A stretch of DNA of 34,498 nucleotides from Patescibacteria group bacterium (GCA_022843855.1 JALHMV010000008.1:1-34498); one strand, 5' to 3'. Numbered from the stretch's first letter, positions 3,007-34,380 are shown. Translations and numbers: made by a program. Notes: a model not told the origin generated them from the sequence alone.

Positions 3007-6000
3007 CTATTCCGATTCGAACCCGTGGTTTGAAAATTTAAGGGTTCGACTATTTTCAGTTACAGTCCTGACAAGGCTCTCTGGAGCCCCGGACGGGATT
3101 TCAGCTTCTATTTCCAGCGTAACCTTGACGGTCGCATTTACGATCCCCGACAGATGCGCGACGACTTCGTCCGCGATCTGGCTGGCGTCGCGTCCGACTC
3201 GCGTCGGATCAAGGGAAACGGTTCCAAAAAACCGTTTTGGCAAAGTTGCCCCCGGAGCGGAAGATGTTCCGGCCCCCGCAGGATCGGGCGGAAGCGGCGG
3301 GGCGTCGTTTCCATTATCTTGCTGACCAGCCGAATTATGAATTCCAATCAGGGATTTTTCTGATTCGATCTGAGCAATAGCTGCATCTGGATGAACCAAG
3401 TGTCCTGGACCATCAGCATCGACGAGATGGATGTTGGCTCCATGCTGCATTCCTCGAAACCGGCTATTCTGCTCATCGTGGCCCTCAGCAAAAGCGAACG
3501 TTTCGACTCCCCAACTCAACAAACTTACCCCGTGTTTTACCGCCCCTAGCAGTACTGCTGGCTCGCTCAGACGTGGCAAATACAGGTATCGAGCAAAGTC
3601 CTCAACAAGCTGCCGGATCTCCACGCTCTGCCCTCTCCACAGCGGTATCCTGTCTAGTTCCATTCGCAGGCGGGTTCCTCCGAAGCTCGTCAAAAGCATC
3701 TCCTCGCTTTTCAGCTTCTTGCTCGCTCGAACGGCGAGGGCGTCGGTACCAGTCAGTCGAAGAGCCTTCCATTCGACCGCATCGGTCGGTTTTATTTGTG
3801 AAGGAGCTAACAGCCACTGGTAAGTTTCAGGTATGCGGGCATTCACAGTTGCGTCAGCCGACCGCATCTGATTCTCCGCTTGGGTGACCTGATGCGGATC
3901 AAGGTTAAGATCAGTCTTTTCCCGCAGGATCGACTCCCAGGCTAAATATGAGCGAATCGCCTCGTCGAGGTCCTGTAGACGTGTACGATCAGGAGCTAAA
4001 AACACCAGTGTGTTTCGATAAAGCCTGGGCGAATTGCCCCGCGATTCTAGTATCAGCCGAGCTGCTGACTCGGCCGGACTGTTCGAATCCTTCGAATAGT
4101 AGTGCTCAAGCCCAAGAACAACCAACCGAGCATCGAGATCATCTGGAACGTCATTGCTAGAGGCGGGCAGAGCATGGATACGCCGAAACTCGCCGCGTTC
4201 AGCCATGTTTGCCCGAATGCGCTTGTCGATCTCCATCGACGTCTTATCGGGATTATGTTTGAGCTGTTCGCGACGGTCTTCGGCCAACTTGGTCACCGTT
4301 GGTTGGGTCGAATACCAATATCGGTTACCGTCCTGATAGAGATAAGTCGCGGCACCTGCCAGCCTGCGCAGAGCGTCACCAAACAGATTTGGCGATTCAC
4401 CTGGCAACACGCACCCGAGTTTTATTCGTCGATCTTCAATTCCGCGGTGCGCCGCCGAAGACGTTGGCGCCGAACCGAGGTAAACCGTGCGGGCGACTCT
4501 ACGACACGCCTGTATCTTCCCTAGATTCGTGATTTCTCCATCGATTTTCATTGGCAGCGAGTTTGGTCCGTCAACATCTTTATCTATGATCGGAACCCAC
4601 TCATCGGAAAGATATCGGGTAAGTTCAAACTGAACCCGTCGGTCGTCGATGGGGATCAGCGATGGCAAAATAATTGGGTTCTTGTCGCCCTTTTCCCAAA
4701 GCGTATGTATGACTGCGGCCATCAGACGTAGCACGCCACGAGTTCGCTGGAATTTAACCAGCGTTGACCAGTCGGTGTACAGTCGGTCAAATATCTCCGG
4801 GTGGATCGGATATGCGGCCTTTATTCGCTTTTCATAATCCGACTCGCGGCACTCTGGCGGAAATTCCTGATGCTGCTGCCGATAGAGTTCCGCCAGCGCT
4901 CGAGCAGTCACGTCACGATGCTTATATTGATCGGCAGACATCGGCTCGAATAATCGGCGCCTAACTATCTCGAAGCCTTCCTCAGCACTGGCTGGCCGCC
5001 ATGATGATTCTACGCGGCCTACAACGTTACGCAGCCGATCAAGGGCTTCGCGTCCGCGTACTCCGCCAACCTCCACATCGTCCGCCCGAGTATGCGGCGA
5101 ACCAGAAGTGTCCGACGCAGGAAGTGAGATGACGATCAAGCAATTCCCGGCCAATTTCGCAGATTCGGTGAGCGCTTGAGCGAAGGTAAATTGTGTCTCA
5201 AAACCACCCGCCGGCAGATCGCTCTGATCGTGAAGCTGTCGCGCATACGCAACCCATTCATCGATGAGGATCAGGCAAGGGCCATATTCAACGAAAAGCT
5301 CGCGGAGTTTATCTCCCGGGTTGGTCGAATTTCGGTCATCTTCCGCTACCTTAGCGAACGCTTCTTTACCGCCGAGCTGGTACGCAAGTTCACCCCAGAG
5401 AGTCCGAACCTCCGTTCCGTCTGCCTTTACAGCGACACTTCCCGGCGGGATCTTGTTTCCCACGAGGACGACCCGATTAGCCTTCGGCACCTTATCCACC
5501 GACGCTTTTTTGATGATCTCGTCCACGCCCGCGAGTTCGCTTGCAGTCGCCCCAGAGAACAAATGAAAGAGTGCGAGCATCGAGTGCGTCTTGCCGCCGC
5601 CAAAGTTCGTCTGAAGCTGTACAACGGGATCGCCGCCTTTTCCTGAAAGCCGCTCGACCGCTCCTTCGAGGAGTCGTCCGAGGCTTTCAGTCAGAAAGGT
5701 CCGCTTAAAAAATTCAACTGGATTGCGATACTCGTCAGAGCCTTCTCCGAGGTGAACCTGCCAGAGGTCGGCCGCAAATTCCGCCTGCTGATAGTTTCCG
5801 CTCGCCACATCTCTGTGGGGCGTTGCGATCTCAGTCCAGGGCTTTAGTGTGCTCGCGGCGGCTGCCTCGATAAGCGAACCGCCAGCCTTGCGTTTCTCAC
5901 CCCGAACCTGCTCCTCCATGATCAGGCGCCGGAGTTCCATTTTGATCTTACGAACCTCGTCGGCCTCGGGTGCTGAGACGGCCGCGAGTAACCGCTCCGT

Positions 6001-6345
6001 AGAGTCGAGAGCACGATCCGCGTCGTCGCCCGAAAAAGCCTCTTGATGTGCCCATTTGTTCCGGTGGTTACGCAGCTCTGAGACTAGTCCCCGTTCCGCG
6101 TAGCCGAGAGTTGCGGCGAAGATATGGTTCCACGTATCCCACATCATCTTCAGCAAGGCCGCAACATCCCATTCGGACGGAGGTTTGTTCCCGATCTTCG
6201 GATCTGCCATAAACGGAGCGAGGATATCCGCCGTCACGCGGCCTCGCTCGATCGCAGACTGGACCTCACGGTCTACAAACGGCCCAAGTCCTGACTTGAG
6301 CAGCTCCATCGCCTTTCCAACACGTTCGTAATTTGAAATTGCCAT
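3007..6345 (-). CDS. HEPN (Swt1-type)-DUF499 ATPase, defence-associated
   Basis: The product is 1112 aa. Residues 1-120 resemble the Swt1-type HEPN domain and contain RNKWAH (95-100), which fits the RX4H motif of HEPN ribonucleases. From about 155 the DUF499 ATPase region follows, with Walker A NFGGGKTH (247-254) and Walker B CLILIDEW (357-364). The C-terminal 70 residues, after a Pro/Ala-rich linker near 1040, may bind DNA or a partner. DUF499 ATPases are typically found with DUF1156 methylases in defence islands, and that partner lies two genes upstream in transcription order. In this role it would be an ATP-driven sensor or mover, with the HEPN domain a candidate RNA-cutting effector; both are inference. 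It starts with ATG, 17 bp after the small 104-aa gene, in the same operon. Confidence 0.88.
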   Translation of the reverse strand: MAISNYERVGKAMELLKSGLGPFVDREVQSAIERGRVTADILAPFMADPKIGNKPPSEWDVAALLKMMWDTWNHIFAATLGYAERGLVSELRNHRNKWAHQEAFSGDDADRALDSTERLLAAVSAPEADEVRKIKMELRRLIMEEQVRGEKRKAGGSLIEAAAASTLKPWTEIATPHRDVASGNYQQAEFAADLWQVHLGEGSDEYRNPVEFFKRTFLTESLGRLLEGAVERLSGKGGDPVVQLQTNFGGGKTHSMLALFHLFSGATASELAGVDEIIKKASVDKVPKANRVVLVGNKIPPGSVAVKADGTEVRTLWGELAYQLGGKEAFAKVAEDDRNSTNPGDKLRELFVEYGPCLILIDEWVAYARQLHDQSDLPAGGFETQFTFAQALTESAKLAGNCLIVISLPASDTSGSPHTRADDVEVGGVRGREALDRLRNVVGRVESSWRPASAEEGFEIVRRRLFEPMSADQYKHRDVTARALAELYRQQHQEFPPECRESDYEKRIKAAYPIHPEIFDRLYTDWSTLVKFQRTRGVLRLMAAVIHTLWEKGDKNPIILPSLIPIDDRRVQFELTRYLSDEWVPIIDKDVDGPNSLPMKIDGEITNLGKIQACRRVARTVYLGSAPTSSAAHRGIEDRRIKLGCVLPGESPNLFGDALRRLAGAATYLYQDGNRYWYSTQPTVTKLAEDRREQLKHNPDKTSMEIDKRIRANMAERGEFRRIHALPASSNDVPDDLDARLVVLGLEHYYSKDSNSPAESAARLILESRGNSPRLYRNTLVFLAPDRTRLQDLDEAIRSYLAWESILREKTDLNLDPHQVTQAENQMRSADATVNARIPETYQWLLAPSQIKPTDAVEWKALRLTGTDALAVRASKKLKSEEMLLTSFGGTRLRMELDRIPLWRGQSVEIRQLVEDFARYLYLPRLSEPAVLLGAVKHGVSLLSWGVETFAFAEGHDEQNSRFRGMQHGANIHLVDADGPGHLVHPDAAIAQIESEKSLIGIHNSAGQQDNGNDAPPLPPDPAGAGTSSAPGATLPKRFFGTVSLDPTRVGRDASQIADEVVAHLSGIVNATVKVTLEIEAEIPSGAPESLVRTVTENSRTLKFSNHGFESE

Positions 6346-6362
6346 ACTGAAGTTAGAAGGTC

Positions 6363-6677
6363 TTAGCCTCGTTGTGGGTAGATGTGATAGCGAAATTCAC
6401 CCATCTTTTCGATAACGACTTTATCGCCCGCTTTCAGGTCGTGGCGCTTGAAGAATTTTCCAACCCACGCTCGCTTGCGAAACATCTTCTTGTCCCCCGC
6501 AATATCGGTTTCTACGGGTTCGTCAAATCCGATATGAAGTTCCAGAACACTGGGAGCGGCCGCCGTTTTTGAAGTACCGCCGATCGCGGATGAAGGAAAG
6601 ATCTCCATCACTGAAGCAAGATTGAGGGAATCATTCCGAATGTTCCCGTCTGTGACCTCGATAATTCCGACGTTCAT
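6363..6677 (-). CDS. Small basic protein, possible DNA-binding pseudobarrel (B3-like)
   Basis: The product is 104 aa, ATG start. No family is certain. The C-terminal half reads RAWVGKFFKRHDLKAGDKVVI followed by RYHIYP, a pattern of alternating strands with a GD turn that resembles the B3/EcoRII-N type DNA-binding pseudobarrel sometimes fused to or encoded beside restriction and methylation enzymes. The N-terminal half (NVGIIEVTDGNIRNDSLNL) is acidic and strand-rich. It lies 17 bp upstream of the DUF499 gene and 48 bp downstream of the 299-aa gene, inside the operon, so a role as specificity or adaptor subunit is plausible but inferred. Confidence 0.7.
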   Translation of the reverse strand: MNVGIIEVTDGNIRNDSLNLASVMEIFPSSAIGGTSKTAAAPSVLELHIGFDEPVETDIAGDKKMFRKRAWVGKFFKRHDLKAGDKVVIEKMGEFRYHIYPQRG

Positions 6678-6725
6678 AAACTTAGCTCACTTATTTCTTA
6701 TGCAGCACTAATGCGGTCCCCTGCG

Positions 6726-7625
6726 TCACCGCCCTAATAATTCGTCTATTTCAGCATAACGAGCCGCTGAGATCGACATAAGATATTCCTGCTCGTCGGT
6801 CTCATCTTCGATCTCGAGAATTTCAGCCATTCCACCGAGCTTTGATATTTTGTCGAGTAATCCGATATGAAGGATCTCGGTAGCCGGAACATACTCAAGA
6901 AACTCCTCGGAAGTGATTCGGGTCTTGTACTTTGCATCCTCATCGCCCTCTATCTCCTCAGCATCGACCGATAACGAGAGAAAATAGCGTCCATCCACGG
7001 ATTCCAACACCCAAAGCCGGACTATGTCCTTATCGACATCATTAAGCGAGTGCTCAAAACACACCTCTATCCTATTGTCTAGATTTGTGATCTCGCTGTT
7101 GTCTGGCCGCCTTAGGAGGATCAGGTCAATCATAGGCAATTCGGATTCAGTAGATTTATATATCGGCTCCTCCTGAGAATTATACTCAGCAAATTCAACT
7201 GCTTCGGCTTCACTAAGCTCGTAGCCAAAATATGCGATCCGCGGCACGGTCGTTTCTATTATTTGTCCCATTTCCCTTTCGAGGTTCCAGGAGTGCTGCC
7301 TCCATACGCCATCCTCAGACAGAGCGAAGCCCGTCATTATGATATAGCCGTGCATCTTAAAATTCGCCGCCGAGTTCGCGTGGCACTGGCCGTGATGCCG
7401 AGCATCGACGAGCCGCGAATCCTCGCCGCTCAAATATATCCCGCGTATCAAGATCTTCTCCCGATCCAGAACGGATCCCAGTACCACGACGGCCTCGCCT
7501 CCATGACGCAGGATATGTTGCTTCAGCTCCTCAGTTTCTGTGTCCATATGTGTCGAGTCGGCAGTAAATCCACGCTTAGCGAGAGAAGCCCTCCGAATTG
7601 GGTCCATTGGTTCTTGTGTAGTCAT
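6726..7625 (-). CDS. Uncharacterised protein with putative Cys-His active site
   Basis: The product is 299 aa and I do not recognise a named family. Residues about 70-140 contain a striking block: HGQCHANSAANF (Cys81, Asn84), then DGVWRQHSWNL (His111) and QIIETTVPRIAYFG (Glu124). A Cys near a helix start, a His before a Trp and a following acidic residue are how papain- or transglutaminase-fold enzymes place their catalytic residues, so a hydrolase or transferase is possible. Residues about 165-299 are acidic and look like a separate helical and strand-rich domain. Its ATG lies 7 bp after the methylase stop with no Shine-Dalgarno sequence, so it is probably translationally coupled to the DUF1156 methylase. 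It sits between that gene and the DUF499 gene. Function unknown; the Cys-His idea is inference from motif spacing. Confidence 0.75.
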   Translation of the reverse strand: MTTQEPMDPIRRASLAKRGFTADSTHMDTETEELKQHILRHGGEAVVVLGSVLDREKILIRGIYLSGEDSRLVDARHHGQCHANSAANFKMHGYIIMTGFALSEDGVWRQHSWNLEREMGQIIETTVPRIAYFGYELSEAEAVEFAEYNSQEEPIYKSTESELPMIDLILLRRPDNSEITNLDNRIEVCFEHSLNDVDKDIVRLWVLESVDGRYFLSLSVDAEEIEGDEDAKYKTRITSEEFLEYVPATEILHIGLLDKISKLGGMAEILEIEDETDEQEYLMSISAARYAEIDELLGR

Positions 7626-7632
7626 ATGTTAT

Positions 7633-10600
7633 TTAATCGAACATTTCTCCCTGCGTGGCTGTTGGTGCCGACGCTTGTTCTTGCGACAACCGCATGATCT
7701 CGGGCCAGGATTGGACAAGGCCGTTGTAGCTGAGCGCTTCGGCGGCGCGTTTTTTGCGTTCGCAGAGGGTGTAGAGGCGGTAGCAGAGTTCGCGGGCGGT
7801 TTCTGCTCTGGCTCCTAGTTGGGCAGCGATACGGGCGGCGGCCGATTCGCCGTCTTTTTCGAGGACGCGAACGAGTTGATGCACCATATCCCAGACGGTT
7901 AGGCGGCCGTCGCTTTCCGGCGTCCAGTTTTCCTGAAGCTCGTCGGGCCGGAACAGACGGACCTTGCCGGCCTTTGCTTCAAGGATCGGGCTTGTACGCG
8001 GATCGGCCATCTCGGCGATCGATGTGTTCTTGGCTTTTGAGAGCGTTTCGGCACGGCCGTATTCGCCCGCCTCGAAGCCAAATTCCTCGAACCACGCAAG
8101 TGCCCAGCGGGTGTCGGCGTCGAAATCGCCTTCCTGCTCGGCCAGCACCTCGTCGAGCGTCTGGTTAATCAGCGCCAGAGCATCACGGACCGAGAGCGGC
8201 TTGCCCTCGGCATCCAGAATCTTTTCATACCTTGTGTAAACCGCCATTCCCGGCCCGATCGCCGCCTGTGCAAGATCGACCGGTGCGATGTTGCCGCGCT
8301 GGAGATGTCGAAGAGCGTCGGGAAGTTCGGATTTGAGCGCGTTGACGAATTCACGACGTGTCACTGTGGTAGCGTCCACAATTCGTTTTCGGCACACCAA
8401 CACAATACTTGAGGCAAGCACATTTACGCCCGTCTTTACGCCAGTCGGTCTTTCGGTTCGTACCGGCCAAGTTCCCGATACTGCGAATTCAGCACGAATT
8501 ACCGCATCCAAAAAAGTCTCCCATCCAGTACTTGCGGTACCGCCGCCAGTCTCCGTTTCGGCCTGCTTAAACGCATAATAAATTGTCACAGGAAAAGCAG
8601 GATGGGCCGCCGAGGACAGACGGTTCATTGCCATAGTCATTCCTTCGAGAAAGAACTGTTCCGCTTTCGCCTTGCTGGCATGTCGAAAAGGGGTCGCAAT
8701 GAGTTCCTCGACTTTGGGAACCGTCAGCGTCGAAAAGAGGTCCGCAAATACGGGCTTCAGCGACCGACGCAACCAGATATAAAAGAAGTCCGAAAGGTCA
8801 GCGTAACCAATATTGTCATAATAAGGCGGATCGGTGGAAACAACCTTCCCGTCCGATAGGTTTTGAGATTGAGCATCTAATCGATGTGTATGGCCGGTAG
8901 CTTTCCCAAAGTGATCTCCAAAGTTCTGTATCGTCTTAACGATGAAATCCAAACACTTGTGCCAACTGGCCGCCTCGCAGAAGGGATTAACCTCGCCAAA
9001 ATCCCACGTCATTGAAAGTGTTTGACGCGAAAACATGTTTACAACAAGTTCATGTGCTGGATTGCTGCTCCAGACCGATAGCGTTGAAAACTGCATCATC
9101 AATCGATCTAGATTGAATGCTAGATAAACAGCAATTGCATTCGCATAGGTCAAACTGGGTCTCGCTGCGTCATGTTCGGCATGCTCCCGCTCCCCTCGGT
9201 CAACCACTTTCTTTCGATCATTAGCGATTCTTTCACGCACCTCGGAGATTAAATCAGAGAAGGTCGAGAGAGCCAGTAACTGACGAGGCGTAAATAAATC
9301 GCGCCATCGCTTCATCCCATATTCCTGAACCCGGAAACCGAGGGCCTTTTCAGGAAGGTCTGTGTCAGGCACATTTTGAGGAACCGCTACCCGCGCAAGT
9401 GCTTCAATGTCAGACGTTGGGGAGATGTAAACACGCCCACTTTCTCCTTCAAGAGCAACCGCCATTAGGCGAGCCCCCATTTGACCTTGCTTTCCTTGAG
9501 ATCTTAGATACTCGAATGGCATAGGCGTGCGGGAAACAAGGCAGAAGAAACTTGTGCCACTACTACCGTTCTTTGTCCCATATTTAGCCAACTCAGATTT
9601 CTCGGCTCCTCCGACTTTGACCTCGAAGCGGTAATCTTTTCCATCAACGACCGGTTGCACGAAAGTCTCTTTCCCTACCTTCTTGGAAAGCATGAACGAT
9701 GACGCCAATGGCACATCTATATCGCGAAACGCTGGGTTCGGACTCTTCACCGTCCGTGCCCAGATCCACGCAATGACGGTTAGCTTTTTTCCGATGTATT
9801 TTTTGAGGTCCGGGCGATCCTTTGCTACTTCCTCGGTGATCTCGACCTTTGGGTAAAGATGGCCGATACGTTTTTCGGCTTCGTCGCGCATCCATCTGCC
9901 GTAGTAGCGGACGTCTTCGGCAAGACCCTCGGCTCCTTTCCAAACCTTCAGAGCCTTTTCCGTGTCGCTCCTCGATTGCCATTCAGGGTTGACCGGCGGC
10001 ATCCCGGCAAATTTCGGCGGTATCTCGATCATCGCCTTGTTGATCAGCACCGCTACCGGGTTGAGGTCCGAAGCATAAGCCTCAAGCCCCAGCCGCTGCG
10101 CCTCAAGCGGCAAAGCGCCGCCGCCCGCAAACGGATCGTGAAACGCTGGCAGCTTGTTCCGGTCAAAAAGCTCCTTCGCCCGCGGATGATCGGCATTATC
10201 CGCACAAGTTCGTCGCCAACTCTGCCAGATCTCCGCCCGGGCCTTATCAAGCACCGTCTCGTTCGTCGTGTTTTCCCAAAGAACAAGCTCCTCGATGATC
10301 TTGAACAGCCGGTCGCGTTCCTGCTCCGCGATAATGTCGTCCAGAGTCGGCTCCGGCCCCGGATCGGGCGAATCAATACCGGCCTCATCTGCCTTTCTCT
10401 TTACTTCGGTTGCGGTAACCCAAACCGGATGCCGATCCTTGAGCACTTTCTCCGCTTTTTTGCGCAGCTTGTCGTCCATCTTCAGCGTATCGACATACTC
10501 CGAAGGATCATCCACCATTTGCGAAAAAATAACCGCCCTCGCTGCCGCCAAAGGCCGCCTAGCCCACCACAAATGCAGTGTGCTCGGATGCCCGTGTCGT

Positions 10601-10680
10601 ATAGACTTCTCCCTTGCCGACGCCTTATTTATCGCCTCAAGCGGCAAAGCTACTTCGATCAGTTTCTTTCTTAACTTCAT
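7633..10680 (-). CDS. DUF1156-family DNA methyltransferase
   Basis: The product is 1015 aa. The N-terminus ([19 protein letters not shown], then [19 protein letters not shown]) is the DUF1156 signature. SAM-binding motif I is DPFAGGG (182-188) and the amino-methylase catalytic motif is DPPYYDN (617-623), so N6-adenine or N4-cytosine methylation is expected. The role in defence would be marking self DNA for the operon's ATPase and nuclease partners. Base composition is uneven: the two ends (about 9850-10680 and 7640-8330) are visibly GC-richer than the centre (about 8340-9800), which hints at exchange of an internal segment. The first 147 bp and the first 63 bp recur upstream as decayed copies at 11447-11593 and 12073-12135. 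The gene is followed closely by the 299-aa gene. Confidence 0.92.
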   Translation of the reverse strand: MKLRKKLIEVALPLEAINKASAREKSIRHGHPSTLHLWWARRPLAAARAVIFSQMVDDPSEYVDTLKMDDKLRKKAEKVLKDRHPVWVTATEVKRKADEAGIDSPDPGPEPTLDDIIAEQERDRLFKIIEELVLWENTTNETVLDKARAEIWQSWRRTCADNADHPRAKELFDRNKLPAFHDPFAGGGALPLEAQRLGLEAYASDLNPVAVLINKAMIEIPPKFAGMPPVNPEWQSRSDTEKALKVWKGAEGLAEDVRYYGRWMRDEAEKRIGHLYPKVEITEEVAKDRPDLKKYIGKKLTVIAWIWARTVKSPNPAFRDIDVPLASSFMLSKKVGKETFVQPVVDGKDYRFEVKVGGAEKSELAKYGTKNGSSGTSFFCLVSRTPMPFEYLRSQGKQGQMGARLMAVALEGESGRVYISPTSDIEALARVAVPQNVPDTDLPEKALGFRVQEYGMKRWRDLFTPRQLLALSTFSDLISEVRERIANDRKKVVDRGEREHAEHDAARPSLTYANAIAVYLAFNLDRLMMQFSTLSVWSSNPAHELVVNMFSRQTLSMTWDFGEVNPFCEAASWHKCLDFIVKTIQNFGDHFGKATGHTHRLDAQSQNLSDGKVVSTDPPYYDNIGYADLSDFFYIWLRRSLKPVFADLFSTLTVPKVEELIATPFRHASKAKAEQFFLEGMTMAMNRLSSAAHPAFPVTIYYAFKQAETETGGGTASTGWETFLDAVIRAEFAVSGTWPVRTERPTGVKTGVNVLASSIVLVCRKRIVDATTVTRREFVNALKSELPDALRHLQRGNIAPVDLAQAAIGPGMAVYTRYEKILDAEGKPLSVRDALALINQTLDEVLAEQEGDFDADTRWALAWFEEFGFEAGEYGRAETLSKAKNTSIAEMADPRTSPILEAKAGKVRLFRPDELQENWTPESDGRLTVWDMVHQLVRVLEKDGESAAARIAAQLGARAETARELCYRLYTLCERKKRAAEALSYNGLVQSWPEIMRLSQEQASAPTATQGEMFD

Positions 10681-10708
10681 AGAACCATTAGGAGTAAAAT
10701 TAAGCCGA

Positions 10709-11329
10709 TTATCCGTTGACCCGAGAGTCAGATCCGGGGCGTGGTCTCCCCCTCCGTTTTTGGGAGATGAACCATCGAAGAGCAGAGACTAGCGTCGACG
10801 TCCGATAAGTGAGGTCGTCCATTTCGCAAACCCATTCACCTGATCTTTGAAAGATGCCCCACTTCCGACCATCCGAGAAGACGCCGTGAAGTTCCATGCA
10901 GTCACCAAGAAAATTCCCCAGTGACTTAAAAGTTGTTCCGAGGCCCAAATACGACAAGTATTTTTTCATGCCATTGTCGTCAGATTCGGGCTTCCAGTCG
11001 GCTGGGGTATGCTGCCAGGCGACGACTCCGTGAATCTCGATTACTCCGCCGCTAACAAACCAGACCCATTTGTCTTCCTCCGTCCTGTAGTACGCAAGTC
11101 GTGTTTTCGCGGCATCGTCTTCGTTTTTAGTTGCAATCAGGTACAGACCGTCGACGCTTGGTTTCTCCGGAAGTGCTATCCATCGATGTGCCGTTTCGAA
11201 GCCCTGCATAAACGCGCGTGACCATGTCTTACGGAGTGTCGGGCTATCACGGTGTCCTTTCTCCTCAACGAAGAAAGTGTAGAATCGGGGAAGATCCGTC
11301 GCCAACCGTTTTGCAATATCTTTATTCAT
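10709..11329 (-). CDS. Accessory protein, possibly DUF551-like
   Basis: The product is 206 aa, ATG start, without a clear Shine-Dalgarno sequence. Residues about 55-115 contain the pattern KPSVDGLYLIAT ... WVWFVSGGVIEIHGVVAWQ, in which a 'D-G-x-Y' strand is followed by a Trp-rich strand; this resembles DUF551-type proteins common in phages and islands, but the match is weak. The C-terminus is basic (QKRRGRPRPGSD). It lies between a decayed DUF1156 start (11423-11593) and the intact methylase, 28 bp before the methylase ATG, so it looks like a cassette inserted at the methylase start. Function unknown. Confidence 0.65.
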   Translation of the reverse strand: MNKDIAKRLATDLPRFYTFFVEEKGHRDSPTLRKTWSRAFMQGFETAHRWIALPEKPSVDGLYLIATKNEDDAAKTRLAYYRTEEDKWVWFVSGGVIEIHGVVAWQHTPADWKPESDDNGMKKYLSYLGLGTTFKSLGNFLGDCMELHGVFSDGRKWGIFQRSGEWVCEMDDLTYRTSTLVSALRWFISQKRRGRPRPGSDSRVNG

Positions 11330-11422
11330 ACTTTTACCAATCGTGCACGAATCGCTGCGTCACCCTTCAGCACGGCTGTTTTGCGGAGCTGATCAATTCA
11401 ACTAAACTACATTTCACGCTGG

Positions 11423-11593
11423 TTACTCCAAAATCTTCCTTCTGCCCGCCCTAGCCGCCGCCAACGGCCGCCTAGCCCACCACAAATGCAGCGTACTGGG
11501 ATGCCCATGCCGAATCGACTTCTCCCTCGCCGACACCTTGTTTATCGCCTTGAGCGGTAACGCTACTTCGATAAGTCTTTTTCTGAGTTCCAT
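11423..11593 (-). pseudogene. Truncated copy of the DUF1156 gene 5' end (56 codons)
   Basis: A short reading frame begins [20 protein letters not shown] and continues through the DUF1156 signature to [10 protein letters not shown], then leaves the homology and stops after 56 codons. Bases 11447-11593 align without gaps to the first 147 bp of the intact methylase gene (10534-10680), about 80% identical by eye. The protein similarity is higher than the DNA similarity, so the parent copy was once under selection. A functional 56-aa product is unlikely. It sits between the 128-aa and 206-aa genes. Confidence 0.85.
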
Positions 11594-11666
11594 TATTCCA
11601 CGATCAAATCGGGACGCCCTTTACCGTGAGAGTCTCGCAATCAATGCCAGCTACCGAGAAGACGAT

Positions 11667-12053
11667 CTAACTAACCCACCCTAGCTCTTCGAGCGCTACC
11701 GCAACCTCCGGGCGCATGAACATCGCCATCGGGGCATACCAGATGCAAATGCCGATCAGCCATAGCTCGCCATCGTAGTTGCGAGGCTTGCCGTATCCCA
11801 TCTCCGTCAGCAGGAGCTTCGCCACTTCGCCATACTGCCGGTTAACTGTTCGCCAGCTCTCTATCCCGCATAGACGAGCAAGTTCCTGCACCGTGGCAAC
11901 ATGGCCCGGCGACCCGTAGTGGGCCCGCAGAAGCGAAAGCTGCATATCCGACAGGCGTGGCCTGATAGCTTCGAATCCTTTCTTATACTCCTGCGGGGAT
12001 GGCGAGACCGGAAATGCCCGCATGGATCTGGATGGCTCATTTATTTTTTTCAT
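11667..12053 (-). CDS. Small winged-helix-like accessory protein of restriction islands
   Basis: The product is 128 aa; the ATG at 12053 is used, with an alternative at 12023 and no strong ribosome binding site at either. The core (RPRLSDMQLSLLRAHYGSPG, then ATVQELARLCG) and the ending MRPEVAVALEELGWV match my memory of a small uncharacterised family often encoded beside, or fused to, HNH and restriction proteins; the LLRAHY to LARLCG part reads like a helix-turn-helix. It lies between two decayed DUF1156 starts inside the operon. Its role is unknown; DNA binding is inferred. Confidence 0.65.
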   Translation of the reverse strand: MKKINEPSRSMRAFPVSPSPQEYKKGFEAIRPRLSDMQLSLLRAHYGSPGHVATVQELARLCGIESWRTVNRQYGEVAKLLLTEMGYGKPRNYDGELWLIGICIWYAPMAMFMRPEVAVALEELGWVS

Positions 12054-12072
12054 ATTTTGTATTTGGTCTGTC

Positions 12073-12135
12073 CAATCGATTCTTTACCGCCTCCAACGGC
12101 AGCCCTACATCGATAAATTTCTTTCTTAGTTACAT
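12073..12135 (-). pseudogene. Older decayed copy of the DUF1156 gene start (about 21 codons)
   Basis: Read from the ATG at 12135 the sequence gives M-stop-LRKKFIDVGLPLEAVKNRL, which matches [20 protein letters not shown] of the intact methylase, with the second codon mutated to TAA. By my count 45 of 63 bases match the first 63 bp of the methylase gene without gaps. It is shorter and more diverged than the copy at 11423-11593, so it is probably the older remnant. It lies 10 bp downstream of the ArdC/ImmA-like gene. Confidence 0.75.
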
Positions 12136-12144
12136 CGCGCCTTA

Positions 12145-13128
12145 CTATTGAGCCTTCTTCTTCGGTCTCAGCGGCAGATAATCCTTCCCCATCTTCTCGA
12201 TAAGAGTTACGGCACGCAGGATCGTATCAACACTTATCTCAGGCACTTCGCCTTTGGCAGCCTGCAGATACCCCGATAAATACTCGTCGGATGTCGTCTC
12301 GATGCCGAGACGACCGCAAACCAAATAGGAAACAGATTCTGCCTCGAACTCTTCAGCTACTCGTGATCGACCGGACCGGTTCGGCCACCATTTGGGGTCG
12401 GGCGTACCCAAGTGACCGCAATACAAATGACCGAGTTCGTGGACAAGCGTTGCGTATCGAGCTTCTTTAGATAAATGCGTGCTCAGGAGCATTTCATAAC
12501 GCTTTGGCACCGTCTCGTAGGTCAGATCCGGCCTTTTGGATTTAACGGCGTTGAGAGTACCCGGATTTGGTGCCCGCCTAATCGACCCGGCGAGCTGTGA
12601 CCCAGCCTGATGATCCGAAATGCTGATACCATCTCGCTTCGCGTTCGCGATCGTAAGATCGAGTTCGTTCCCGATTGTTCCTCTTCGTATATCGAACGGA
12701 TTGACGACTTCGGGCGGCAGCGGTCGAGCCCAGGGCCCCGGCTCCACATCGGTAACGTCGAACACAAACATAACCGGCCCCATCGGCCGCAGTATCGTTA
12801 TGGGCGTTGCCGAAACCTTTACATTATAACCATACCGCTCAGACCATCGTTTAGGGGTTGCAACATACTTCGCACCCGGTCTCTGAGTATGAATAAGCAT
12901 GGCGTTGAACGGTGAATAGAATCTGAACCCCTTGACGAAGTTCAATAATTTCATGTATTCATTACCCGAGCGGTACTTACCGGCGATTGCAAAGAGTTCG
13001 TCGAGGCCATCCTTGATGTCTGCACGAGTTGGGTCTATGCCGTCCTTCTGCACGCCCTCCTCGCTGTCGAGAGGCTCATCAGGTTCGTCGAATAAAGTAA
13101 GCTGCCGATGGCACGGGCGATCTAACAT
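12145..13128 (-). CDS. ArdC/ImmA-like metallopeptidase (possible antirestriction protein)
   Basis: The product is 327 aa from the ATG at 13128, chosen because GAGG lies at good spacing; the track's TTG at 13140 overlaps the previous stop codon. Residues about 45-130 (YSPFNAMLIHTQRPG, VATPKRWSERYG, ILRPMGPVMFVFDVTDVEP) match the ArdC N-terminal ssDNA-binding-type region. A zinc peptidase part follows with HELGH (about 222-226) and a downstream EFEAES helix that would give the third ligand, as in ImmA/IrrE and SprT-like families. ArdC proteins protect incoming DNA from restriction; ImmA/IrrE peptidases cleave repressors. Either role would suit a mobile island that carries its own restriction genes. 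It starts 8 bp after the DUF262 stop codon, with its ribosome binding site overlapping that stop. Confidence 0.8.
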   Translation of the reverse strand: MLDRPCHRQLTLFDEPDEPLDSEEGVQKDGIDPTRADIKDGLDELFAIAGKYRSGNEYMKLLNFVKGFRFYSPFNAMLIHTQRPGAKYVATPKRWSERYGYNVKVSATPITILRPMGPVMFVFDVTDVEPGPWARPLPPEVVNPFDIRRGTIGNELDLTIANAKRDGISISDHQAGSQLAGSIRRAPNPGTLNAVKSKRPDLTYETVPKRYEMLLSTHLSKEARYATLVHELGHLYCGHLGTPDPKWWPNRSGRSRVAEEFEAESVSYLVCGRLGIETTSDEYLSGYLQAAKGEVPEISVDTILRAVTLIEKMGKDYLPLRPKKKAQ

Positions 13129-13136: not shown

Positions 13137-14846
13137 TCAATACGCGATATTCGGGGATTCGAGGTCGGTCGCCCCAGTAATACCCGTTACCCGCTTTATT
13201 TCATTCCAGAGCCGCTCCTGTCGCCAAACCAGAAAGCCCTGATAATCGTCAGTCCAAAATGGAGAAATATCGCCTGTCGGCAAGCAGTGCGATTCCAAGA
13301 TCGCGTCGAACGGAAATCCAGTCGTTTCCTTGATTGTCCGAAGATAATCGGACGGAGCCCGATTACTGATCTTCTTATTCGTGGTTCCATCGATTAATGT
13401 GCGATTTACAATGCAGTCGCGTTCCCTAGAACTGTCGATATTCTTGACCTTCTGAAGGAAGTCAGCAGGAAAGATATGGTGATCGTCGATCGACTCCTCT
13501 TTCATAAGTTTTCCGGTGATCACCGCCTGCGTATGAAAATCGCGGGCAGGAGATCCAGAACTGAGGATAAGGCAGATGGTTCCTCTATAGATCGCCCTCT
13601 GGCGAGGCGTCACATCCCGCAACGAGTTTGGATCGAAGCGGAGCGTACTGACGGACTCGGGCTCAGTCTCGGCAGCAAACCATCGGAGCAATTCCGTTAA
13701 GTCTTTTGCTCCCTGACTGTTTGGGGCATTCTCATAAGACTGGCCGAAAACCGAACACCAGAACCATCGTTTAATTTTCTCCCGGTTTGCCCCCGACTTT
13801 GCGGTGTTGTCGGGGCCTGACTTCGCGAGTACAGCAGTGATCGGCACCATCATCGTTGCATAAGGCATCCATTTAGGGAGGACTACCCCGCAATCGTCTC
13901 GAAGTATGGTAAGGCCGTCGGCAGCAGCTCGAACAACTTTGGGCCACCACTCGTTGAAGTCTGCAGCAGTTAAGTTGAGTACGTCGCTCTTTTTACACGA
14001 AGGTGCGGGACGACTGAGCAAGGCGATCGCCTGCAATAGGTAATACGGATCAACATCGAACTCAGCAATGATCGGATGCTCCTCTCTCGAAATGTCCCAA
14101 ATCTCGCGCAGGCGAATCCCGTCCTTCCAGAAGCGAGCGGTTAGTAACTCAAACACCGTAAGTTTAACGCCTGTTCGGTTCAAGGTTTCAAAAATCGTAC
14201 AAAGAGCATCTGCCGTGGTCGAATCGGCGAGAGTTACAACCGGAAAATGGTAGTCGTCGATGGTTTTGATCCAAGCATCATTCAAATCTTTGAGATTTTT
14301 CATCAAACTGGCCCGCTCATCCGAGGGCAGCGGATGCGTCACCTCAAACAGCCATTCGAGAAAACCGCCGGCCCCACCTTTAAGGACGCTTAGCGGTAGG
14401 ATCATTTCTCGGGCCTGGGTCTCGAAGTCTTCCAACTCGCGCACCCTACGGGTCGTTCTCCGAAGGTGGAAAATCGCCTCTTCAAAGTCGAAACCATCGA
14501 GTAACTTTCGGATATTCAGATAGTACCGGTGGTCACCTTCCCCATAAAACGCCTGGTAAAGTGAGGTAAGTCTCTGCTGACCATCAAGTACCAAAAATGT
14601 ATGGATTCGTCCATCGGATTTTGGTGCCCCTTCAAACTCGCGGGAAGCAAACACACGTTCTTTATCGCGAACCCGCAACAGGCTTCCCGCCGGATGGTTG
14701 TTGGCAATCGATACAATAAGCTCTTGTGTAGCACTCGGATCCCAAACAAAATCTCGTTGAAAATCCGGCAAAACCATATTCCGAGAATGAACGTCTGCGA
14801 GAAGTTCCTTGAGTGCCTTGGGGTTTGTATCTTCAAAAATACTCAT
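13137..14846 (-). CDS. DUF262/DUF1524 protein, GmrSD-like type IV restriction nuclease
   Basis: The product is 569 aa. The N-terminal DUF262 domain (ParB/Srx-fold NTPase-nuclease) shows VLPDFQRDFVWDP (25-37) and the DGQQR motif (88-92). The C-terminus carries the DUF1524 HNH-type nuclease motif DDHHIFP (454-460), followed by RDCIVNRTLID and KKISNRAPSDYL. This is the single-chain arrangement of GmrSD-type enzymes, which cut modified phage DNA. The ATG overlaps the helicase stop codon (ATGA), so the two are co-translated and probably act together. Whether it targets modified DNA, or instead serves as nuclease for the methylase-based system here, cannot be told from sequence. Confidence 0.88.
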   Translation of the reverse strand: MSIFEDTNPKALKELLADVHSRNMVLPDFQRDFVWDPSATQELIVSIANNHPAGSLLRVRDKERVFASREFEGAPKSDGRIHTFLVLDGQQRLTSLYQAFYGEGDHRYYLNIRKLLDGFDFEEAIFHLRRTTRRVRELEDFETQAREMILPLSVLKGGAGGFLEWLFEVTHPLPSDERASLMKNLKDLNDAWIKTIDDYHFPVVTLADSTTADALCTIFETLNRTGVKLTVFELLTARFWKDGIRLREIWDISREEHPIIAEFDVDPYYLLQAIALLSRPAPSCKKSDVLNLTAADFNEWWPKVVRAAADGLTILRDDCGVVLPKWMPYATMMVPITAVLAKSGPDNTAKSGANREKIKRWFWCSVFGQSYENAPNSQGAKDLTELLRWFAAETEPESVSTLRFDPNSLRDVTPRQRAIYRGTICLILSSGSPARDFHTQAVITGKLMKEESIDDHHIFPADFLQKVKNIDSSRERDCIVNRTLIDGTTNKKISNRAPSDYLRTIKETTGFPFDAILESHCLPTGDISPFWTDDYQGFLVWRQERLWNEIKRVTGITGATDLESPNIAY

Positions 14847-17800
14847 GATGGTTCTCCTGCCTGTGCCAGCATCTCAGCAAAGCTGTAATTAATGCTCGTT
14901 ACGCCAAAGTCCGGTTCACGCTTGAATGGCTCGCGAACATAATGAACTTTATGGGTCTCGTCATCAAAAAATTCAACGATCGCGAGAATGAAGTCCTCCG
15001 GCTTGTTTAACGAGTATAGAATCTCATTCTTTGTAACTGTGATCGTCTCCGCCCCACTGACTCTTCCTTTCACCTCGACGAACCGCAGTTTGCCGGTACC
15101 AGGAACCCGGCTTTCAATGTCATAACCAAGTTTCTCGAATTCACGGTCGGTAGGTTCAAATCCAAGGTTCCTTTCGATCCCCATCACAATTTCCCGCGCC
15201 TTTGCAGCAGAGATTTGCGTGTTGATGGAATTGCCGTTTGGTCTTTCGGGATCTCCAGTCATTTTCGCGATCATTCCAGCGGGCACAACCAACATTCCGC
15301 CTAAAATCACAGGAGGCAGCGGCGAGATCTGACGTTCGAGTGCAAGGTCGGATAGTCTCTTTTGCAGGCGAGCTTGCAGGATATCGGCCCTCTTACGGGC
15401 TTCGTCAGAGTTGAGTTTCGCATTGACCTTACCTGATTGCTCTTGCAGTTTTAGCTGTTCGGCTCGGTGATCCCAGTGATTGATCTCCTTGGTCAAACGA
15501 TCCTTCACGGCTGCCTCGGTCTTGTCTATCAGGACGATCTTGGGGTCGCGTACCTCGGCAAGGTGCTCTGGCACAACCGTCTCGATCGCGTGGCCTTGTG
15601 CCTTCATTTCCAGATCGCGTGAGACCCAGCCGCATTCTGGCCGGTCGAGTATCTGGTCGATCCCCGGCTCGCCGTCCGCAAGGGGTCGGTAGTCAAGATA
15701 TGGCGCGTAGTGCAGATGTCTCGCCTGTCCATCAGAATCAATCTCCACGTACAGGATTTGTTTTGAAATTACCCGTCGATCACCATTTCTGGTTCTCGAT
15801 GCGTCTTGTATGGCATGTTCCAGGAAGAACACTACCCGAGGCTGGACACCTGTATCACGCTCATCCACCAGCACCACTCCGCGGCGCAACAGGTCGCGGT
15901 CTCGTTCGAGAATTAGATCGATCGTTGCTTCGAGCAGAGGATGGCCCGGACACACAAACGCGGCGAGCGGTTGGCCCTGTGGAGCGATAAGAGCTTTATC
16001 AAACGCGACACGTTCATAACGAGGCTGAACCGGTTCACCGATCCCGATAAGACGATCTCGGTTGCGAATCACGGCCGGAACATTCGTGATCTCGTATCGC
16101 CTCGGTTCACGCTGCTTAATGGCTCCGCCAAGACGTTGGAAAGCCTCTATGAAAAACGATTCAATGTAGTGGGGCTGCAGTCGGCGAGCATCGGCCCGCT
16201 CCATATCCTCACGGATCCGGTTCACTCGTCGCGTATCCATTGAATCGCGAACCAGGGCTCGCTCATCAAAAAGGTCGCGGATTTCATCTGGATCAAAAGC
16301 TGACTCGACCGCCTGGGTCAAGCGAGCCCGAATCTCCGGTCGCTCACCGTATCGGATCGCTTCGATCAGAAGTTGCCGCAATGCGTGTCCCTGAAACTGA
16401 AGTTTCCCGAGCACATCAAAGACCTGACCGCCGAGTGCCTTCCGAGCCTCCTCGAGTTTTTCGAGCAGTCGTCGGTATACATCACCCTCCCTGGTCTCAT
16501 CCGCGACCAAGTTCCATAGATGGCAAACTTCCGTCTGTCCTATTCGATGAATTCGGCCAAACCTTTGTTCGAGCCGGTTCGGATTCCAAGGTAGGTCATA
16601 ATTGACCATCAGATGGGCTCGTTGTAGATTGATGCCTTCACCCGCAGCATCCGTCGCGAGTAGAACCTGAACCTCGGGATCGTGCCGGAAAGCCTCCTGG
16701 GCGTTTAATCTTTCTTGCCTGCCGATCCCGCCGTGGATCACAACAACAGACCTATCTCGACCGAGCAGGGTCTTGATACGAGTTTCAAGGTAGTTTAGCG
16801 TGTCGCGGTGTTCGGTAAATATAACGAGCTTCTGTTGGGACGAACGAACGAATTCTGGAGAGTTTGAATCACTCTTTTCAGCCTTCCCGGCTGAGAATAT
16901 CTCATTCAGTAGCGAGGCAAGTTCTACCCATTTCTTATCTTCGCCGCTATGTCGTACAGCGAAAGCAAGCGATTCGAGTTGTTTTAGGGTTGCTATCTCT
17001 GCCTTTAGTTCATCGATCGTTCCCGCCGCGGTCGCTTGGTCAAGTATCTGCTCTTCAGCAAGCTCCGCTTCCTGATCAGGAGCATCATCGAAGTCCTCCA
17101 GATCCTCAACATCAAACAGTTCTTCAAATTTTGGTATTAGGATGCCAACGCTACCACCCCGAGCCAGGATTTCCATCTCGCGGAGTCTGCTCTCCAATCG
17201 CTCTCGACGGCGACGGAGTGACTGGTAGATTGCCTCGGGCGACGAAGCAAGCCTGCGCTGCAGGATCGTCAAAGCAAATCCTACCGTACCGGCCCGTTTA
17301 TCATTCTGAAGGGCCTCAGCCCGATTGAATTCTTCACGCACATAATCGGTTACAGACTTATAGAGAGCAGCCTCCGCTCCAGATAGTCGATATGGAACCG
17401 TATAGGCTATTCGTTCAGGGAAAAGAGGTGTCGCGTCGAACTTAAGGAGACTCTCTTTTACCATCCGTCGCATCATGTCCGATACATCGGCTACGTGAAC
17501 GCCATCCCGGAATTTCCCCTCAAAGCGATCACCGTCAAGCAAAGCCATGAAGAGTTGGAAATCCTCTTCTTTCCCGTTGTGCGGGGTGGCCGTCATCAGG
17601 AGAAAATTTCGTGTGATGGTCGAGAGCAACTGAGCCAATCGATACCGCTTGGTATACTTGACCTCGCCGCCAAAGAACGTTGCCGACATCTTATGGGCTT
17701 CGTCGCAGATGATAAGATCCCAACCAGCATCAGGAGCCTTGAGTTTCTCCTGAACATCCTCGTTTCTGGACAACTTATCCAGTCTCGCTATGCAGAGCTT

Positions 17801-18397
17801 GGTCTCCTGGAACCAGTTACCTGTCCGAGCCGCTTCAAGTTTGTCATTAGTCAATATTTCAAACGGAAGATTAAATCTTCGCGAAAGTTCGTCCTGCCAC
17901 TGTTCCGCGAGCCCGCCTGGACAGACGACCAAACACCTCTCAAGATCCCCGCGTGCTATCAACTCCTTGATCAATAGTCCCGCCATGATCGTTTTCCCAG
18001 CACCCGGGTCATCTGCAAGCAGGAACCTTAACGGCTGCCTCGGTAGCATCGATTCGTATACCGCCGTAATCTGGTGAGGGAGCGGCTCAACTACTGAAGT
18101 GTGGACCGCAAGAAGTGGGTCAAAGAGGTGAGCGAGATGGATACGCTGGGCTTCAGACACCAAGCGAAATTTACCGCCGTCGCCGTCAAAACTCCACGGA
18201 CGACCTTTCTCAACGATCTCAAGGCGATCTTCGTCAGCACGATAAAGAAGTTCGTTGGCGACTTTGCCGGTGGCCGATTTGTAGGTCATCTCAACGGCAT
18301 CTGAACCAAACCATTGAACGCTGACAACCGTTACGATGCTGTCTGGGAGCACCCCCCGTAAAATCGCATTGGGCTGCAGATCTTCGAGTTTAATCAT
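14843..18397 (-). CDS. SNF2-type helicase with C-terminal DUF3883
   Basis: The product is 1184 aa from the ATG at 18397 (MIKLEDLQPN); the track's longer start adds 25 residues unlike the family. Residues about 100-420 hold the first RecA-like lobe, with ADDPGAGKT (128-136), DEAH (232-235) and LMTATPHNG. The second lobe has a VVIHGG strand, LLATDAAGEGINLQ and motif VI QRFGRIHRIGQ. A long helical region follows, ending in a DUF3883 domain (about 1070-1170; LRFVEVKGR), a restriction-endonuclease-like fold often attached to defence helicases. Similar proteins act as the DNA translocase of multi-gene defence systems such as DISARM (DrmD). It is the first gene of the operon and overlaps the DUF262 gene by 4 bp. 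Confidence 0.92.
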   Translation of the reverse strand: MIKLEDLQPNAILRGVLPDSIVTVVSVQWFGSDAVEMTYKSATGKVANELLYRADEDRLEIVEKGRPWSFDGDGGKFRLVSEAQRIHLAHLFDPLLAVHTSVVEPLPHQITAVYESMLPRQPLRFLLADDPGAGKTIMAGLLIKELIARGDLERCLVVCPGGLAEQWQDELSRRFNLPFEILTNDKLEAARTGNWFQETKLCIARLDKLSRNEDVQEKLKAPDAGWDLIICDEAHKMSATFFGGEVKYTKRYRLAQLLSTITRNFLLMTATPHNGKEEDFQLFMALLDGDRFEGKFRDGVHVADVSDMMRRMVKESLLKFDATPLFPERIAYTVPYRLSGAEAALYKSVTDYVREEFNRAEALQNDKRAGTVGFALTILQRRLASSPEAIYQSLRRRRERLESRLREMEILARGGSVGILIPKFEELFDVEDLEDFDDAPDQEAELAEEQILDQATAAGTIDELKAEIATLKQLESLAFAVRHSGEDKKWVELASLLNEIFSAGKAEKSDSNSPEFVRSSQQKLVIFTEHRDTLNYLETRIKTLLGRDRSVVVIHGGIGRQERLNAQEAFRHDPEVQVLLATDAAGEGINLQRAHLMVNYDLPWNPNRLEQRFGRIHRIGQTEVCHLWNLVADETREGDVYRRLLEKLEEARKALGGQVFDVLGKLQFQGHALRQLLIEAIRYGERPEIRARLTQAVESAFDPDEIRDLFDERALVRDSMDTRRVNRIREDMERADARRLQPHYIESFFIEAFQRLGGAIKQREPRRYEITNVPAVIRNRDRLIGIGEPVQPRYERVAFDKALIAPQGQPLAAFVCPGHPLLEATIDLILERDRDLLRRGVVLVDERDTGVQPRVVFFLEHAIQDASRTRNGDRRVISKQILYVEIDSDGQARHLHYAPYLDYRPLADGEPGIDQILDRPECGWVSRDLEMKAQGHAIETVVPEHLAEVRDPKIVLIDKTEAAVKDRLTKEINHWDHRAEQLKLQEQSGKVNAKLNSDEARKRADILQARLQKRLSDLALERQISPLPPVILGGMLVVPAGMIAKMTGDPERPNGNSINTQISAAKAREIVMGIERNLGFEPTDREFEKLGYDIESRVPGTGKLRFVEVKGRVSGAETITVTKNEILYSLNKPEDFILAIVEFFDDETHKVHYVREPFKREPDFGVTSINYSFAEMLAQAGEPS

Positions 18398-18802
18398 TTT
18401 GAAAGATACGAGACGACAAGGATACCACAGAAAAGTCAGCAATTTCACCGGGAGAGAAATGCAACATTTCAATACCCTCTCTGGGCATCCGGTTCCTGTT
18501 AGGCGACTTTCGATAGCTAGGCTATCATTAGATAGTTTGAATGCCTCGAATCCCTAACTATTTACTCGACACGGTAGCTTTCATTTGTACGAGCGAACAC
18601 CTTTATACGAGTGATAATGATGTACAGGAAGGCGCTCGACCCGGGCGTACCGGTCTATGGCATCGGGCGTCCTTAGTAGCATTCCAATTCTCAACAAAAT
18701 CTTGACTACACCAGCATTATCGTAAGTGAATCGACGTTAATTTGAAGACCCGTGGATTCCTTTTTCGATAGAAATTTATCGGAGTTGATATTTTTTACTA
18801 TT
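18398..18802. promoter_or_regulatory. Divergent promoter region between defence operon and DUF4011 nuclease-helicase
   Basis: About 400 bp separate two divergent large genes, so both promoters should lie here. A small inverted repeat, GATAGC-TAG-GCTATC, spans 18512-18526 and could be a regulator site. TTGACT at 18702-18707 is a possible -35 for the rightward gene, but I see no good -10 at standard spacing. No further gene is visible apart from the upstream GTG alternative (18752) for the DUF4011 gene. Confidence 0.45.
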
Positions 18803-29399: not shown

Positions 29400-30266
29400 T
29401 TACCCGGCTACCTCGTTTAGACTCTCTGAGCGGTTCTCGCTTCCGTGGGGACATTTCCTTATCTCGCCGTCATCGTTGTAGATGAGACCTCCATTGTGCC
29501 GGCATTCATTGCACCTTTCGGGTAACTCTTTGGACGCGGTGGCGGCTTGGTCTGAGCTGTTCCAGATACTTATGAAATAGTCGACTTTTGTCTCGTCCCT
29601 GCAAATTAGCTCCAAGTCATCATAAACAACTTCGCCAGGGTTCTGACCTTGATGGTACGGAGATTCTTTGCATCCGCGCACCGCGTCCTTCAACTGATCA
29701 ACAGTGTAACCATCGTCCAGGCGCTTCAAAACTGCTTTTTCCCGTTTCGGTCCGAAAATCGTGGCCGAGCCTTTCTCGAAAGTTGTGATCCAAAAGAGAA
29801 ACACTTCTCGGGCTTGATTCTTTCTTATTCCATTCTCTTTATTATTCTTGTCATTTTTTTGTGACGGTTCGCGTAATGATCTTGTGACGGTTGCGTCATT
29901 TATTTGTGACGCTTCCGTCATATTTTCATTACGGTTACCTGTCACAATTTCATTACGGTCGCCAGCGGCACTGTTTCGATTTCGGGCATTGAAAATCGCA
30001 ACCCGCAACCCTCTAGAATGTCCGTTTGACCAGAGGTCCTCTAAGTACCCTCGCGATCGCAAGTCCGAAAGCATATTCCGCACGGTGCCTTCCTTGAGAT
30101 TTAGTATTTCGGCAAAATGAGAGGCCGAGGCGTAGCACCCTTTCCCAACGTCATTATCAAGTGCGGATATCTGAGAAAGCAGCACCTTCTCTGTCCACGA
30201 GAGATTCATATCGTCGAAGATCTCTCGTGGAAGCCACAAGCCCGTCATGCTTTCCTTCAGAGCCAC
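29400..30266 (-). CDS. Winged-helix replication-type protein (DnaD/initiator-like)
   Basis: The product is 288 aa from the GTG at 30266, which has GGAGG at good spacing; an in-frame ATG at 30248 is an alternative. Residues about 10-95 form a winged helix (LSWTEKVLLSQISAL, YASASHFAEILNLKEGTVRNML, LRSRGYLEDLW), like phage and plasmid initiators or helicase loaders. The middle is Asn-rich and polar. Residues about 145-235 may be a second helical domain, and the end has a Cys/His knuckle (CNECRHNGG ... CPHG). It overlaps the DnaB-type helicase stop codon by 10 bp, so the two form a replication pair: this one would recognise the origin or load the helicase. Confidence 0.78.
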   Translation of the reverse strand: MALKESMTGLWLPREIFDDMNLSWTEKVLLSQISALDNDVGKGCYASASHFAEILNLKEGTVRNMLSDLRSRGYLEDLWSNGHSRGLRVAIFNARNRNSAAGDRNEIVTGNRNENMTEASQINDATVTRSLREPSQKNDKNNKENGIRKNQAREVFLFWITTFEKGSATIFGPKREKAVLKRLDDGYTVDQLKDAVRGCKESPYHQGQNPGEVVYDDLELICRDETKVDYFISIWNSSDQAATASKELPERCNECRHNGGLIYNDDGEIRKCPHGSENRSESLNEVAG

Positions 30267-34195: not shown

Positions 34196-34215
34196 AAACT
34201 CCCCTCTGTAGAAAT

Positions 34216-34246
34216 TTGTTGGACTAAATGTTGGACTTGTTGGACT
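34216..34246. repeat. Right arm-type repeats of the integrase (three TGTTGGACT units)
   Basis: TGTTGGACT occurs at 34217-34225, 34229-34237 and 34238-34246. The first two have the same 12-bp period as the left-end pair, and the 22 bases from 34216 to 34237 are identical to 50-71. They sit just upstream of the integrase start, between it and the tRNA fragment, so they could also let the integrase regulate its own promoter. Confidence 0.75.
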
Positions 34247-34309
34247 ACATCTTCGTGATAAATTGTGACAAACTGAGAAACAAGATGCAAACAGGGATAC
34301 GATAATATC

Positions 34310-34324: not shown

Positions 34325-34380
34325 CTTTATAGACCTAGCGGCCCGCATTTTCCTTATGTATCTTTAGTCAGTGTAGTTCA

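Follow-up and report, generated by a model that had tools for sequence, protein, structure and literature searches.

Why should the beginning of a DNA methylase gene recur twice within one operon, each time next to an accessory gene? Such an arrangement is found in a 34,498-nucleotide stretch of DNA from a Patescibacteria group bacterium (GCA_022843855.1, JALHMV010000008.1:1-34498; its whole length is referred to here as the window). Its minus-strand operon can be assigned by PADLOC and Pfam matches, which identify an SNF2-type helicase, a DUF1156 methylase, and a DUF499 ATPase with a HEPN domain, to the Hma system, i.e., the type-1 DUF499-centred systems related to bacteriophage exclusion (BREX), and is predicted to act against phages. 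The interval between the helicase gene hmaA and the methylase gene hmaB is hereafter called the slot, and the accessory genes within it are called cargo. In transcription order, the operon comprises hmaA, a GmrSD_N gene, an M78-like gene, copy 3 of the methylase start, a gene for a 128-aa protein, copy 2, a gene for a 206-aa protein, the intact hmaB, two small genes, and hmaC. The reading that is favored here, with moderate confidence, is that the cargo slot grows by recombination with other Hma alleles and that the methylase fragments are the fusion scars of two successive additions. The features at issue are the following:

14843..18397, minus strand: hmaA, SNF2/DEAD helicase with a C-terminal NOV_C domain, left border of the slot (PADLOC HmaA, 1703 bits; Pfam Helicase_C, ResIII, and NOV_C)
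12073..12135, minus strand: copy 3, remnant of an old hmaB head, ATG followed by TAA (detectable match at 12080-12135)
11447..11593, minus strand: copy 2, hmaB codons 1-49 (ungapped match to 10534-10680)
11370..11441, minus strand: hmaA 3' tail remnant, the last ~22 codons and the stop of hmaA, abutting copy 2 in another frame (recognized by a hidden Markov model [HMM] of HmaA C termini)
7633..10680, minus strand: hmaB, DUF1156 N6-adenine methylase, right border of the slot (Pfam DUF1156, E=1e-27; PADLOC HmaB, 1442 bits)

The repeated segment is the head of hmaB (10534-10680). Copy 2 is identical to these first 147 bp at 123 positions (84%). The absence of gaps had been stated in an earlier note on this DNA, which was also correct in the order of copy 3, the 128-aa gene, copy 2, the 206-aa gene, and the intact methylase. 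The note had further described a recurrence of the first 63 bp at 12073-12135, with a stop at codon 2; the ATG TAA start of copy 3 is indeed there, but the match is detectable only over 12080-12135 (43 of 56 positions, 77%) and cannot be followed past about codon 19. The copy farther from hmaB is, as claimed, the shorter and more diverged one. Chance similarity was rejected as an explanation: copies 2 and 3 score 198 and 60, respectively, and the best score in 300 dinucleotide shuffles of the slot was 36.

What the earlier note did not describe is the hmaA tail, for which the 200 bp after copy 2 give an HMM score of 16.1 bits (the best of 2000 local shuffles had 10.3 bits, and none reached the observed value). 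Because this tail adjoins copy 2, the scar is an hmaB-head::hmaA-tail (hmaB'::hmaA') fusion, and the stacked unit is therefore composed of an hmaA tail, an accessory gene, and an hmaB head. Copy 2 and the intact hmaB head form direct repeats of the target that flank the 206-aa gene, and the hmaA tail lies between copy 2 and this gene, i.e., the insert is not joined directly to the target sequence. After the older copy 3, an hmaA tail is not recognizable.

The earlier description of the copies as decayed does not hold for copy 2, which sits in an open 56-codon open reading frame (ORF; 11423-11593, ending at TAA 11423). It differs from the resident head at 24 nucleotides, 19 of them in third positions, which amounts to 18 silent codon changes and 4 amino acid changes in 49 codons (dN/dS of about 0.05). 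With 24 neutral changes, about 16 amino acid changes would be expected; even 12 neutral changes would give 8.4, and the probability of four or fewer is then 0.0035. Since the differences are nearly all silent and the amino acid changes are far below the neutral expectation, copy 2 appears to have diverged mostly while it was part of a working hmaB, under coding constraint. For the same reason, its source was probably another hmaB allele rather than the resident gene decaying in place. Comparison with other methylases, which the note had proposed, agrees with this: the identity of copy 2 to the hmaB beside it (84%) does not exceed that to the hmaB of the related locus L026 (86%). The scar head in L102 shows a similar, mainly silent divergence (12 nucleotide and 2 amino acid differences). 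In L056, scar b and the resident gene have nearly the same head (97% identity), but identity between the two cargo genes that flank this scar is only 65%, which points to the joining of alleles with different cargo.

Are such scars confined to the window? The sample consisted of 80 hmaB loci from GTDB genomes, supplemented with loci from targeted genome searches; the latter were picked for suspected truncated copies and are therefore excluded from the scar frequency. Heads of hmaB, tails of hmaA, or their fusions were detected in the slots of L026, L029, L051 (tail only), L056 (two), L077, L100, L102, L104, L177, L191, L204, L215, L225/L226, and L227, whose hosts belong to several bacterial phyla and to the archaea, so that the further remnants anticipated in the earlier note do exist. 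Fusions with a clear hmaA tail are found in the window, L029, L056a, and L204 (where the fusion is seamless and in frame); very short tails are seen in L056b (KAPQ and a stop) and L104 (AEVPQ and a stop) and are probable in L077 and L191. In the set not chosen for scars, 7 of the 53 complete nonempty slots are scarred, all in operon orientation (the initial count of 6 of 52 changed when the L056 slot was completed with its upstream part). No hmaB heads were found outside the slot on either strand of 78 loci, and none of the 32 nonempty hmaB-hmaC intervals contains an hmaB tail or an hmaC head. The point at which hmaB is broken off lies between codon 13 and about codon 214, with a break near codon 49 common to the window, L056b, and L077. 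Because of this variation, a fixed crossover site is unlikely, and a fixed site-specific junction was ruled out.

Of the scars in the window, L056, and L227, the more decayed is in each case the one more distant from hmaB; L225 shows no clear order. This polarity fits growth at the hmaB side, with the GmrSD and M78 genes as the oldest cargo of the window, acquired before the 128-aa and 206-aa genes; that the GmrSD gene overlaps the hmaA stop and recurs in other slots was also counted toward its being old.

Several observations fall outside this pattern. An HMM search of plasmid-borne Hma copies (Thermus, Planktothrix, and Rhodococcus) found no scars; on the Thermus thermophilus plasmids L211/L212, hmaA has the reverse orientation, and the strains differ in what immediately precedes hmaB (a gene for a Fic family protein in HB8, a short ORF in AA3-7). 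L192 has two hmaB head remnants upstream of hmaA, at 6242-6361 and 12162-12281, outside the normal slot. The genome of L049 contains an isolated hmaB head remnant (L205:11276-11561) and, 6.7 kb beyond it, an hmaA tail. The archaeal genomes of L222 and L228-L231 contain heads of another DUF1156 family that are short or interrupted and may be comparable scars.

The slot itself is highly variable. In 68 operons, the length of the hmaA-hmaB interval lies between -4 and about 8,080 bp (median, about 1.7 kb), and its 227 predicted ORFs of at least 60 aa, some of them surely spurious, fall into 129 similarity clusters, so that related operons do carry different genes upstream of the methylase. A slot gene is shared in only 12 of the 104 locus pairs with at least 75% HmaB identity. 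L041 and L045 match at 95.7% identity over hmaA and the first two slot genes. Their similarity ends with the second of these genes and returns one base ahead of the hmaB ATG, and the genes in between are different. Cargo families with DUF4062-HATPase and AlbA_2-HATPase architectures occur in different order around the scars in L056, L077, L100, L102, and L104. An archaeal metagenome bin contains a pair of Hma operons, L088 and L090, whose sequences agree fully from a point inside hmaA to a point in the first slot gene and differ thereafter; unless the bin mixes strains, this points to an exchange between the two operons by recombination. These comparisons support the interpretation of the hmaA-hmaB interval as a cargo slot that swaps and accumulates accessory genes, with a rapid turnover, and, together with the scars elsewhere, they sustain the proposal in the earlier note of a recombination-prone slot beside the hmaB start that records its own growth. 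Within hmaB, protein and silent-site identity fall sharply at codons ~450-540 (79 homologues), also in the close pair L041/L045; this is the probable target recognition region, and exchange may involve specificity in addition to cargo.

How could the slot grow? At each addition, a block made of the hmaA 3' tail, cargo, and hmaB 5' head of another, presumably donor, Hma allele would be joined in tandem. The crossover on one side would be homologous, most likely within the conserved head of hmaB, and would restore a complete hmaB; on the other side, the resident hmaB head would join the incoming hmaA tail illegitimately. The product would be hmaA - old cargo - hmaB'::hmaA' - new cargo - hmaB. 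Homology-facilitated illegitimate recombination, in which foreign DNA is integrated through one homologous and one illegitimate end, typically with 3-10 bp of microhomology, has been described (PMC3240628). The L056b junction, where about 10 bp (GGCGCGGGCG) are common to hmaB codons 45-49 and the end of hmaA, fits this process. However, the process is known from laboratory transformation, whereas the case of the Hma slot comes from comparative anatomy only, and it usually deletes recipient DNA, of which no loss is seen in the slot beyond the end of the old hmaB head. At the putative homologous end, hmaB is restored at full length, and the match between L041 and L045 resumes at the hmaB start.

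Several points weigh against slot growth by recombination between alleles. No donor/recipient pair bracketing a single scar-forming event was found, and microhomology at the window junction could be judged only with the donor sequence. An excess of four-fold-site identity at the hmaB head, sought as a sign of frequent recombination, was not found; the head is unexceptional beyond the conservation of its protein. The contrast in scars between the hmaA-hmaB and hmaB-hmaC intervals reaches only a Fisher P value of 0.08. Finally, some scars retain long hmaB segments (165 codons in L227; codons 1-60 and 173-214 in L205), and others have internal deletions (L104, L177, and L225); such scars could be reduced from far longer ones, which would also fit the collapse of tandem operons.

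In such a collapse, a pair of operons arranged as A1-c1-B1-C1-A2-c2-B2-C2 (hmaA, cargo, hmaB, and hmaC) would lose everything from inside hmaB1 to inside hmaA2, leaving a B1'::A2' fusion; the product is the same, but a whole second operon has to be present first. The long remnants in L227 and L205 favor this origin somewhat, a diverged partial hmaA (L058:120-1535, 45% identity) lies directly upstream of an intact hmaA, and some genomes, such as that with L088/L090, do have two Hma operons. However, there is not a single intact tandem pair among about 100 operons, nearly all remnants are very short on either side of the fusion, and the hmaA-hmaB scars that were inspected contain no hmaC remnants. 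Collapse is considered unlikely as the origin of the scars.

Less probable still is an in-place tandem duplication of the slot through microhomology between the end of hmaA and the head of hmaB (LARA/AARA), with one cargo copy replaced later. The ~10-bp microhomology at L056b, the similar codon-49 breaks in the window, L056b, and L077, and the related cargo on both sides of L056 scar b would all be accommodated by such a duplication. The head copies in the window and L102, which differ from the resident heads mainly at silent sites and hence diverged as working genes, would not, and the cargo genes next to the scars show no relationship in the window and just 65% identity in L056.

Whatever their origin, do the scars have a function of their own? 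Ten head scars retain an open frame: window copy 2, L056a, L056b, L077, L102, L104, L177, L191, L204, and L227b. Eight of them end in a 4-bp overlap (ATGA or GTGA) between their stop and the start of an ORF downstream that has at least 127 aa; in L056a, an hmaA-tail ORF stands between scar and cargo, and two overlaps of this kind connect them, and the sole uncoupled case is window copy 2, with its cargo 93 bp downstream. For comparison, an overlap of this type joins the intact hmaA to the gene after it in 23 of 69 operons and the last slot gene to hmaB in 24 of 69. Eight of ten exceeds chance, because retention of the frame is expected at only about one-third of junctions, on top of the overlap rate; the rule was counted on the same scars in which it was noticed and needs an independent set. 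Coupling is absent from scars that have early stops or frameshifts. These overlaps suggest that scars may survive because they couple translation of the new cargo to the operon. A tentative extension, given a little less than an even chance, is that scars are selected as translational couplers, in which the old hmaB start and frame run to a stop overlapping the next cargo start, so that borders of core genes would be recycled as leader ORFs while effectors are imported. That the truncated heads persist because they act by themselves, as small genes for a peptide or as translational leader ORFs, whatever their origin, appears quite improbable as an explanation of the scars. The excess of 4-bp overlaps over the hmaA baseline and the amino acids kept in copy 2 speak for it; however, the heads vary in length and content (about 20 to 169 codons), many are interrupted by stops or frameshifts, both window copies are uncoupled, and the idea accounts for retention but not for origin.

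The unit proposed in the earlier note, one gene plus a methylase 5' end inserted repeatedly at the hmaB start codon, which would be comparable to site-specific elements that restore a gene end, appears very improbable: the direct repeats of the hmaB head around each added gene and the end of the L041/L045 variable part one base before hmaB agree with it, but the scars contain hmaA tails, the hmaB break is not fixed, and Pfam detected no recombinase among the window slot genes or ten cargo genes from other scarred slots.

The cargo of the window and the remaining operon genes are as follows:

13137..14846, minus strand: slot gene 1, GmrSD_N (DUF262) protein (Pfam GmrSD_N, E=2.8e-30)
12145..13128, minus strand: slot gene 2, M78/ImmA-IrrE-like metallopeptidase (Pfam Peptidase_M78, 21.8 bits, slightly under the cut-off)
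11667..12053, minus strand: slot gene 3, 128-aa protein with weak winged-helix (MarR_2) similarity, below the cut-off
10709..11329, minus strand: slot gene 4, 206-aa protein with weak PDC-S12 similarity in residues 3-104 (PADLOC, E=3e-4)
6363..7625, minus strand: two genes of the hmaB-hmaC interval, 299 aa and 104 aa, without family assignment
3007..6345, minus strand: hmaC, HEPN_Swt1-DUF499 ATPase (PADLOC HmaC, 1146 bits; Pfam DUF499 and HEPN_Swt1)

The start of the GmrSD_N gene overlaps the hmaA stop by 4 bp (ATGA); members of its family recur in the slots of L027/L028, L040, L043, and L058 and adjoin hmaB in L038. Relatives of the M78-like gene are present in the slots of L024 and L043. The 128-aa protein has no relative among the slot ORFs of related loci, and the 206-aa protein has none among slot ORFs or in 247 genomes of the L026 phylum, in a search that had no positive control. 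The PADLOC match of HmaA (E=0) spans nearly the whole protein; its ORF opens upstream at TTG 18472, with ATG 18397 as the likelier start.

Divergently from hmaA, a DUF4011/AAA/MTES_1575 nuclease-helicase gene is encoded at 18752-23911 on the plus strand, and the far end of the window encodes a DnaB-like helicase and a phage-type integrase (30257-31786 and 32963-34348, both minus strand). Because of these three genes, the Hma operon may lie inside an integrative island. The composition of the window correlates at 0.90 with the other contigs of its genome, whose own range is 0.84-0.96, a value compatible with either an island or a binning error. This genome is small (855 kb in 39 contigs), and a search of seven genomes from its genus or family gave no HmaB match.

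The core of the operon follows the known type-1 arrangement, with helicase, DUF1156 N6-methylase, and DUF499 ATPase with an N-terminal HEPN_Swt1 domain in the same order, and auxiliary nucleases and effectors inside or near the BREX-related core locus have been described (PMC12839542). As far as the available text of that paper goes, accessory genes are treated as associated effectors, and neither a growing or recombining slot nor hmaB'::hmaA' scars nor coupled leader ORFs are described there. Insertion with long target duplication has been reported around restriction-modification genes (Nobusato et al. 2000, as cited in PMC1643837). There too, defense genes are flanked by a direct repeat of part of the target gene, but the repeat in the window is fused to the tail of another gene, hmaA, and is thus no simple target duplication.

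Exchange of cargo between conserved flanking genes is familiar from O-antigen loci, type I restriction-modification specificity genes, and genes embedded in BREX loci. The Hma slot similarly has variable genes between conserved borders that act as homology arms; unlike O-antigen-type exchange, its additions stack in tandem and leave datable gene-fusion scars. These scars would thus constitute a physical record of accessory-gene gain by a widespread anti-phage operon, in which the decay of a scar ranks its age. The slot borders and scars could be used in a systematic search for unknown defense genes, and the coupling of scars to genes provides a testable idea of how newly acquired genes might be expressed immediately.

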